Assembly (NCBI RefSeq): GCF_002233675.1
Contig: NZ_NMUQ01000001.1
Location: 127,021 to 191,020, forward strand
Source of the DNA: Paenibacillus herberti
GTDB taxonomy: Bacteria; Bacillota; Bacilli; Paenibacillales; Paenibacillaceae
Length of the DNA stretch: 64,000 bases
Direction: 5' to 3'
The position numbers and the translations under genes were made by a program. Positions 42,079-54,506 of the stretch are shown one piece after another; within the stretch, counting starts at the first letter, position 1, and the number at the start of each line of letters is the position of its first letter. Under the pieces are notes generated by a model. That model was not told where the DNA came from. It did not search any database and saw nothing but the letters and a program-made list of their open reading frames with translations.

Positions 42079-42155
42079 TGGCGTCCCGGAAGGGATTCGA
42101 ACCCCTGACCGTGCGCTTAGAAGGCGCATGCTCTATCCGACTGAGCTACCGGGAC
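42079..42155 (-). tRNA. tRNA-Arg (anticodon TCT)
   Basis: Read on the minus strand: acceptor GTCCCGG pairs with CCGGGAC; D-arm AGCTCAGTCGGATAGAGC; anticodon loop CTTCTAA (anticodon TCT) on stem TGCGC/GCGCA; T-arm with GGTTCGAATCC. A discriminator G and an encoded CCA follow. 77 nt, reads AGA codons. Confidence 0.97.
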
Positions 42156-53711: not shown

Positions 53712-53750
53712 GCCCGCTGCAAACTTAATTAGCCTAATTGATTTAATCAT

Positions 53751-53780
53751 TGAACCGCCTCTTCGGAGGCGGTTTCTTTC
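53751..53780 (+). terminator. terminator after the gene at 53121
   Basis: GAACCGCCTC, loop TTC, GGAGGCGGTTTC, then TTTC. Confidence 0.8.
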
Positions 53781-53872
53781 ATAATTAGGAGCGTGGTGCT
53801 CGCTGCAACTGGGATTTGTGAAAAATGCTGATCAACTGGGCCGAGGCGCCGCCCAATTTACCGAAAAAAAGG

Positions 53873-53901
53873 TTGCAATTAAGTGGTATAGATGTTATTT
53901 T
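53873..53901 (+). promoter_or_regulatory. candidate extended -10 promoter of speD
   Basis: TTGCAA, 17-nt spacer, TATTTT preceded by TGT (extended -10). Predicts a transcript start near 53908 and a leader of about 148 nt. Confidence 0.5.
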
Positions 53902-53926
53902 TAATTTCGTTGAAAAAAACCCAATA

Positions 53927-54046
53927 TAGGAACCAGGATTCACTCAGGACATGGATATGTTGCGAGAGAGAGTTATCCCTCGGGAAGTGAATGACGTAGG
54001 TCCTAGCGGATGAAATTTCTAATTCATTTTATTCCTAGGAAGGGGG
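53927..54046 (+). promoter_or_regulatory. structured, riboswitch-like leader of speD
   Basis: P1: TAGGA-a-CC (53927-53934) with GGTCCTA (53999-54005). P2: ATTCACT (53938-53944) with AGTGAAT (53986-53992). Inside P2, two small hairpins: ACAT/ATGT (from 53949) and CGAG/CTCG (53963-53982). Alternative: the same TCCTAG (54001-54006) pairs with CTAGGA (54035-54040), with an inner ATGAA/TTCAT stem; its 3' arm abuts and partly covers the AGGAAGGGGG ribosome site. The two folds exclude each other. It matches no riboswitch consensus I know. Confidence 0.5.
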
Positions 54047-54055
54047 AACCGGAAG

Positions 54056-54454
54056 ATGGAATACTCAACTTTCGGAAGACATGTTGCGGTTGATGCTTGG
54101 GGAGTAGATTTCGAACTCATTAACAATGCAGAGTTTCTGCAAGCCCACATGGTAGAGGCTGCAGAAGCATGCGGCGCATCTGTACTCTCAGTTCAAGCCC
54201 AGCAATTCGAGCCACAAGGCGCAACGGTACTGGTGCTCTTGTCAGAGAGTCATCTCTCGATTCACACGTATCCAGAAAGAGGCTTTGCCGCACTTGATTG
54301 TTACACCTGCGGCGAGACGGTGGATCCGCAGCTGGCGATTGACTATATGCTCGCTGTTCTCAAACCTAAAACGACTCACGCCAAGAAGCTTATCCGCGGC
54401 ATGGGAGAGCTTCAGGTAGTAGAACCGGAAATGAAAGCAACTGAACTGGTTTAA
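54056..54454 (+). CDS. speD: S-adenosylmethionine decarboxylase proenzyme (prokaryotic class 1B)
   Basis: Makes decarboxylated SAM, the aminopropyl donor for spermidine. 132 aa. The proenzyme cleaves itself at LLSE-SHLSIHTYPE; the cut falls between E64 and S65, and the serine becomes the pyruvoyl group. The proton donor histidine (H70) and catalytic Cys in CYTCG (C85) are present. The start GRHVAVDAWG is typical. AGGAAGGGGG ribosome site, possibly masked by leader pairing. A strong terminator follows. No speE (spermidine synthase) is adjacent. Confidence 0.96.
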   Translation: MEYSTFGRHVAVDAWGVDFELINNAEFLQAHMVEAAEACGASVLSVQAQQFEPQGATVLVLLSESHLSIHTYPERGFAALDCYTCGETVDPQLAIDYMLAVLKPKTTHAKKLIRGMGELQVVEPEMKATELV

Positions 54455-54472
54455 TAGCCGGGACTCTGTACA

Positions 54473-54506
54473 AATAACCATGGAACGTTCCATGGTTATT
54501 TTTTTT
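54473..54506 (+). terminator. terminator after speD
   Basis: A perfect palindrome (AATAACCATGGAAC and complement) followed by TTTTTT. Confidence 0.9.

Follow-up and report, generated by a model that had tools for sequence, protein, structure and literature searches.

We identified a conserved, structured RNA leader directly upstream of speD in the window, a 64,000-nucleotide stretch of the Paenibacillus herberti genome (coordinates below are positions in this window). Judging from sequence comparison, the leader is very probably a cis-acting translational switch. The features of a translational riboswitch were found together, namely a covarying structured domain, a mutually exclusive helix at the ribosome site and a fitting metabolic gene, and we lean towards reading the leader as a new class of two-state translational element, a riboswitch that would sense a metabolite directly. 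Control of spermidine level in Bacilli is poorly known, and convincing riboswitches of the polyamine pathway are rare. An RNA this invariant, found in front of one gene throughout a class and missing from Rfam, makes an unusually clear candidate for an orphan; if B. subtilis carries the leader, as expected, its ligand and direction of control could be tested there directly.

An earlier note on this DNA had proposed a riboswitch-like leader for speD. The version that it described is nearly invariant in its own family, and the element as a whole is class-wide and includes a second conserved core that is absent from the window.

Leader architecture

Direct reading and a coordinate check placed every stem named in the earlier note where it had been drawn. 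All features of the leader are on the forward strand. Helix P1 joins TAGGAACC (53927-53934), invariant in the 110 loci first fetched, to GGTCCTA (53999-54005), the putative switching strand, in seven pairs with one bulged A. Inside it, P2 is formed by ATTCACT (53938-53944) and AGTGAAT (53986-53992). P2 in turn encloses two hairpins. The first, GACAT/ATGTT (53948-53961; arms 53948-53952 and 53957-53961), was kept in 57 of 59 distinct close versions, a few of which differ slightly in it, and is variable in distant relatives; it seems dispensable, because its GACAU side is deleted in P. radicis and P. gorillae (L032 and L034), where the remaining leader is nearly unchanged. The second, CGAG/CTCG (53963-53982; arms 53963-53966 and 53979-53982), comes from the consensus fold, and its 3' side includes CCCTC (53977-53981), for which an alternative pairing with the ribosome-site GGGGG is possible. 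Between P2 and P1 lies the junction GACGTA (53993-53998), invariant in close relatives and with few changes in the wider, frame-type set; together with AGG (53935-53937) it is a candidate pocket.

The competing stem has as its core TCCTAG (54001-54006) paired with CTAGGA (54035-54040), and it proved longer than had been claimed. Consensus fold and arm permutation point to a ribosome-site hairpin TCCTAGCGGATGAAA ... TTTTATTCCTAGGA (54001-54040), in which UCCUAG(C)GGAUGAAA pairs with UUUUAUUCCUAGGA in 14 pairs with one bulged C; this hairpin covers the AGGA of the ribosome site and excludes P1, the strand common to both being 54001-54005, inside GGUCCUAG. The Shine-Dalgarno region AGGAAGGGGG (54037-54046) is followed by speD (54056-54454, ATG at 54056), an adenosylmethionine decarboxylase gene according to a TIGR03330 match above cut-off, whose product is 97-98% identical to those of the P. 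pasadenensis and P. humicus loci. By eye, a hairpin and T stretch around 53750-53785 seems to end the preceding gene, and a terminator-like hairpin, a consensus match only, lies 3' of speD (54472-54501); speD therefore looks like a single-gene unit.

A predicted promoter, TTGCAA-N17-TATTTT with an extended -10 (TGT), spans 53873-53901 on the same strand (-35 at 53873-53878, -10 at 53896-53901), and position 53873, at which the earlier note had begun the leader, falls at its -35. Because of this promoter-like pair, the RNA is predicted to start near 53908, upstream of P1, giving about 148 nt of leader before the ATG; a start downstream of 53950, which the note had regarded as speaking against its own reading, is not what the sequence predicts. 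Among the 80 named loci, a pattern script matched such a pair in 78, with the spacer 17 bases long in 77; a stricter general promoter scan found none at the leader. By eye, UCGUGAACUUC recurs directly after the -10 region (L215, L232 and L242, from families f24, f47 and f54) and may pair with a GAA..UUCA-like stretch 3' of P2.

Conservation in close relatives

The leader was present in all 110 speD loci first fetched, which comprise 80 named loci (the best 80 of 337 SpeD relatives) and 30 further loci, partly of the same species. Its 59 distinct versions differ almost only in three loops. Across the 80 named loci, three fixed blocks of 21, 31 and 20 columns had mean pairwise identities of 1.000, 0.999 and 0.999, with 21, 30 and 19 invariant columns, respectively. 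Mean identity in the same loci was 0.578 at speD codon position 3 and 0.267 at 120-180 bases before P1; silent sites of the gene are thus under far weaker constraint than the leader. Alignment A1 and covariance model R1 were built from 30 of the 59 distinct versions. Lack of variation among close leaders means lack of covariation in this set, and distant relatives were needed.

Close versions also bear on a quite different mechanism, in which a short upstream reading frame with ribosome stalling would control speD. Mammalian AMD1 is regulated by polyamines through such an upstream frame. In 50 of the 59 distinct close versions, P2 contains an 11-codon reading frame (MLREIIPSGSE type), and in most of them an AGGA stands about 7 bases before its ATG (by eye). 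However, the window and its nearest relatives (4 versions) have another frame, 3 more versions differ in length or frame, and 2 are devoid of ATGTT. In the wider set, an ATG occurs within P2 in only 28 of 67 rows, and the inner core of B. subtilis-type leaders (below) has none. Moreover, paired and junction bases outside the frame are equally invariant. A peptide frame conserved throughout the class was not found, and we rejected this mechanism as a general one; we consider it very improbable.

Folding and the two states

Folding energy of the window leader alone did not stand out from that of shuffled sequences (z 0.58; 150 of 200 folded at least as well), so that a single sequence could not have established the leader. 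A chance fold was ruled out by conservation and covariation in relatives.

When P1 and P2 were forced (state A), the window RNA had a predicted energy of -30.2 kcal/mol and the AGGA an unpaired probability of 0.98. With the ribosome-site hairpin forced (state B), these values were -32.0 kcal/mol and 0.00, and in the unforced ensemble -33.1 kcal/mol and 0.49. The constrained states are thus within 2 kcal/mol of each other, although such predicted energies are rough. L005, L037, L070 and L081 gave the same AGGA pattern with state gaps of 0.4 to 2.8 kcal/mol, L081 being the window's own RNA with other ends. The layout of a translational riboswitch claimed in the earlier note thus stood for AGGA, which the exclusive helix is predicted to cover or free, but not for the adjoining GGGG, whose predicted unpaired probability was 0.31 in state A and 0.41 in state B.

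The closeness of the two predicted energies would also suit a bistable ribosome-site hairpin that has no specific sensor and answers general polyamine, Mg2+ or temperature. For such a device pairing would suffice, yet loops and junctions are invariant throughout the class, and we regard it as quite unlikely.

Covariation

The earlier note had asked for preserved pairings and compensatory changes in homologous leaders. Pairings are kept in the 110 close loci, and those of P2 largely across a tree of 125 loci, all of which have a SpeD match, and compensatory changes are clear for P2 and the ribosome-site hairpin and weaker for P1. On the SpeD protein tree, 15 branches change both sides of a P2 pair with pairing kept; in 200 simulations that placed the 3' changes randomly on the tree, the mean was 0.47 and the maximum 3 such double events. 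Pairs of P2 were broken on 16 branches (null mean 28.6), and 96.3% of cells were paired versus 61.6% in the null. Permutation of its arms (34 arm pairs) gave 0 of 5000 permutations as good. Among 55 inner-type sequences, P2 had 102 double-change cells compared with 35.7 in shuffles and at most 12 in slid controls; the number of pairs with a double change (6) was not unusual in this set (142 of 500 shuffles).

For the ribosome-site hairpin, 43 distinct arm pairs had a native duplex energy of -4.22 versus -2.58 when swapped, and 0 of 5000 permutations were as good. The P1 test was confined to 73 loci in which the script found the P1 frame and yielded 12 distinct arm pairs, with 1 of 5000 permutations as good. 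Its second pair, A-U, is replaced by G-C in two lineages (L237/L272 and L213/L214), and pairs 1-2 are broken in some relatives. These permutation tests ignore relatedness, which the P2 tree test models. A few mis-registered arms were kept in the P2 and ribosome-site permutations and work against the result. The P2 tree, P1 and C-rich/GGGGG tests were run without the false match L187:221, L172 and L203; the last also omitted L207 and L208, and the first L208 and rows gapped in a P2 arm. For L213 and L214, P2 arms in the tree test and P1 arms in the P1 test were set by hand, and the tree test used a one-base shift for the arms of L284 and L287.

Divergent leaders L213 and L214 carry a triple change. 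In CCUAG the U has become C, and at both positions that pair with it, in P1 and at the ribosome site, G replaces A, so that GGUCCCG pairs with UGGGAACC and CCCGGC with GCUGGG. At the level of sequence, this change, found in one lineage, is the best single evidence that both helices matter. Together with the shared strand, it agrees with the two mutually exclusive helices, one at the ribosome site, that the earlier note had drawn, and sequence and comparison show that the two helices exist and share one strand. The C-rich strand could pair with GGGGG in every sequence and showed no covariation in doing so (1667 of 5000 permutations as good).

Invariance by itself is silent on which molecule acts, and a DNA-level or trans-acting RNA element might merely overlap the speD leader. 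Against this, the arms covary as RNA helices that end at the speD ribosome site, and the element usually occurs once per genome, on the speD strand. We consider this the least probable of the explanations.

Distribution in Bacilli and a second core

Groups for sampling follow from the window's own placement, and we take them to be class Bacilli and order Paenibacillales. In the order sample, model R1 matched 210 of 296 genomes, and in the class sample 102 of 299. For alignment A2 we chose 66 fetched loci and left out near-duplicate or truncated ones (e.g., L149, L151, L155, L156, L163 and L169-L171). A SpeD frame lies directly behind 64 of the 67 aligned matches, the other three being a contig end, a frame unresolved by the script and a false match. 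Alignment A3 and model R2 comprise 60 of the 67 A2 rows.

Examination of speD genes missed by R1 revealed a shorter leader with a different invariant core, CUUAAAGGGUURGGACCUCnnnGGACUAACYUUCCCCCGUGG, enclosed by P2. A 22-base pattern of this inner core (2 mismatches allowed) occurred in 133 of 298 class genomes versus 7 for its backward control. The script's core expression matched 39 of the 40 loci that the pattern had yielded; L269 fails on one base. Alignment A4 contains 55 of 62 distinct inner segments; L174, L204, L212, L284 and L287-L289 were left out for their length or register. For the inner core, the register GGG/CCC plus AG/CU was preferred to AAAG/CUUU, UUAG/CUAA; in it, the pair A18-U37 is replaced by G-C in 9 of the 55 sequences, all from apparently related lineages.

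PF02675 detected SpeD-family genes in 223 of 299 class genomes. Either leader signature occurred in 194 of these 223, and a signature was also found in 2 class genomes with no listed SpeD. Where SpeD coordinates were listed, a SpeD domain followed on the same strand 73-115 bases downstream at 95 of 98 core-pattern places and 23-40 bases downstream at 31 of 32 R1 places, a count that covers 98 of 134 listed pattern places, 32 of the listed R1 class places and the 150 SpeD places with listed coordinates. Of the three core-pattern places that lack it, one is at a contig end (G623), one is an additional 2-mismatch place in G440 and the third is G537; the one R1 place without it (G393:C18) corresponds to L175, where SpeD is in fact present.

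Intermediate families carry both the P1-P2 frame and the inner core (e.g., L198-L201, L205, L207, L234, L237, L238 and L243), and the two leader forms therefore look like one RNA lineage. Kept together in these families, the cores occur singly elsewhere: B. subtilis-type leaders lack the frame, and those of Paenibacillaceae lack the inner core. In L238 (family f31), an insertion of about 50 bases occupies the otherwise three-base loop of the inner core. As a rule, a genome has one copy of the leader, on the speD strand. Family f21 has two speD genes per genome, each with a leader (L175/L176, L177/L178, L179/L180 and L181/L182), and the paired leaders keep the frame and differ in the part inside P2.

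In a search of 398 phylum genomes at E up to 0.1, model R2 hit 29 (2 in its own family, 7 elsewhere in the class and 20 outside). Nine of these 20 outside matches were inspected: two, in two genomes of family f110 (E about 2e-9), precede speD, and seven weaker ones (L222-L228) had no SpeD in the fetched stretch. Among the stretches fetched from these genomes, the leader was thus found outside Bacilli only in family f110. The 2.1 kb stretch L213, which holds the divergent speD leader of that family, also contains a cobalamin riboswitch (RF00174, positions 1291-1472, 142.8 bits). The inner pattern gave 2 matches in 169 phylum genomes, one of the class and one with 2 mismatches, versus 6 for the backward control.

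B. subtilis-type leaders precede speD in family f24, whose SpeD we take to be very close to that of B. subtilis, and because of this an Hfq-associated RNA from B. subtilis is probably the same leader. It comes from the speD-gapB gap and is entered in a table as "Unknown or speD leader region", a name given there with no structure or function (PMC3574147, accessible text). Together, these observations suggest that B. subtilis very probably carries the leader and that the Hfq-associated RNA is probably its B. subtilis form.

The same RNA adds to the case for a protein signal, in which SpeD itself or an RNA-binding protein would act on the invariant core of the same two-state leader. Extreme invariance of single-stranded as well as paired bases fits a protein site as well as a pocket, and the checked copies precede one gene only, as in autoregulatory leaders. 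However, no regulator has been linked to the leader, and paired leaders of family f21 keep the frame but not the same inner part. We judge a protein signal possible but less likely than a metabolite.

Proposed mechanism

In the metabolite-sensing reading that we prefer, P1 and P2 would form in state A, with the UCCUA(G) strand held in P1 and the ribosome-site AGGA accessible. In state B, that strand would pair with CUAGGA, extended by eight flanking pairs, and the resulting 14-pair hairpin would hide AGGA. A signal would shift the balance between A and B and, through it, translation. This signal may be a small molecule of the SAM-polyamine pathway that binds the folded core, predicted to be the P1-P2 junction AGG/GACGUA in the window and the inner GGG..CCC core in B. 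subtilis-type leaders. In the latter, in which the P1 frame is gone, the inner GGG/CCC helix would hold the C-rich strand, and the covering hairpin may be CUUUG(A)/(U)CAAAG before GGGGG (by eye in L240, L265-L268, L270 and L271).

Because the core holds the strand that would otherwise hide the ribosome site, ligand binding should turn SpeD on. With an on switch, a precursor (SAM, agmatine or putrescine) is a likelier ligand than the product; an off switch, with feedback by spermidine, would need a ligand that favours state B. A single binding pocket would be odd, since the P1-P2 frame and the inner core are each missing in one group. A more tentative but plausible reading is a Bacilli-wide riboswitch class that is close to obligatory wherever speD heads its own transcript; it would bind SAM or a diamine precursor and turn spermidine synthesis on, and the two cores could be separate sensing modules.

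Relation to known RNAs

In agreement with the earlier note, which knew of no such class, the leader fits none listed in Rfam. In a search of the whole window against Rfam 15, the sole match at gathering score was a tRNA gene (42082-42155, reverse strand), and the leader matched no family. Five sub-threshold matches up to E 10 all fell at 53712-53788, upstream of the leader, and nine relatives searched up to E 1 gave one neighbouring cobalamin riboswitch and four sub-threshold matches. A known Rfam class was thus ruled out for the window leader.

Among translational riboswitches, SAM-III (SMK box) uses an exclusive fold that pairs or frees the ribosome-site strand. The speD leader appears to share this principle, but differs from SAM-III in fold and gene and has no Rfam match. 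Fission yeast spe2 is presumably a SAM decarboxylase gene, and its 5' UTR is then likewise the leader of a SAM decarboxylase mRNA, although eukaryotic and unrelated to the speD leader. That 5' UTR has been said to bind spermidine, and a review judges the support insufficient (PMC10043782, accessible text).

A spermidine riboswitch has been described as a SAM-I variant on spermidine-pathway genes, with speE, speB and speD named in the accessible text (Salvail et al. 2023, PMC10853860). The speD leader would likewise be a cis-acting RNA on a spermidine-pathway gene. Unlike that riboswitch, which keeps the SAM-I aptamer, it has no SAM-I match in Rfam, its checked copies precede speD, and the proposed on switch contrasts with the known spermidine off switch.

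No speD leader RNA class in Bacilli was described in the literature searched, which comprised main texts and left the 2017 catalogue of 224 motifs outside. Within main texts, speD is absent from PMC8632094, PMC11109978, PMC2864571 and PMC6429828 and appears in PMC4448311 only as an E. coli row; the word riboswitch is absent from the accessible text of PMC5519356 and PMC10407285, and that of PMC2965389 likewise describes no speD leader in Bacilli.

speD genes with no recognised leader and searches of mobile elements

In the class sample, 29 of the 223 SpeD genomes had no leader signature. In fifteen, PF02675 matched only weakly (E 7.6e-9 to 6.3e-14), and the genes are probably other paralogues. 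Inspection, which covered 11 of the other 14 (all but G422, G463 and G648), found the core with a changed loop in four (G403, L238; G412, G558 and G655, L288-L290); in L290 the core itself is unchanged, yet it was unmatched in the class pattern search. G407 and G439 (L244 and L294) have P2-like and ribosome-site hairpins and no P1 (by eye). G458, G500, G536 and G616 (L236 and L291-L293) have no leader and carry speD closely behind a coding sequence (by eye), and none was seen in G397 (L239). It may be that only a speD at the head of its transcript retains the leader.

A second copy in the same genome was rejected, the sole near match (2 mismatches) being inside an apparent ABC-transporter coding stretch. 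Viral contigs gave no leader match, nor did phages, which were searched with the Paenibacillus leader only, or plasmids searched with that leader. Plasmids searched with the B. subtilis-type leader gave one match, before speD of a 258 kb Anoxybacillus plasmid record. With this as the only match, these viral, phage and plasmid searches ruled out a phage or plasmid element. The record (NZ_CP015439.1, Anoxybacillus amylolyticus, L247), although filed as a plasmid, carries speD and its leader together with mutM, coaE, a GAPDH gene and nrdR.
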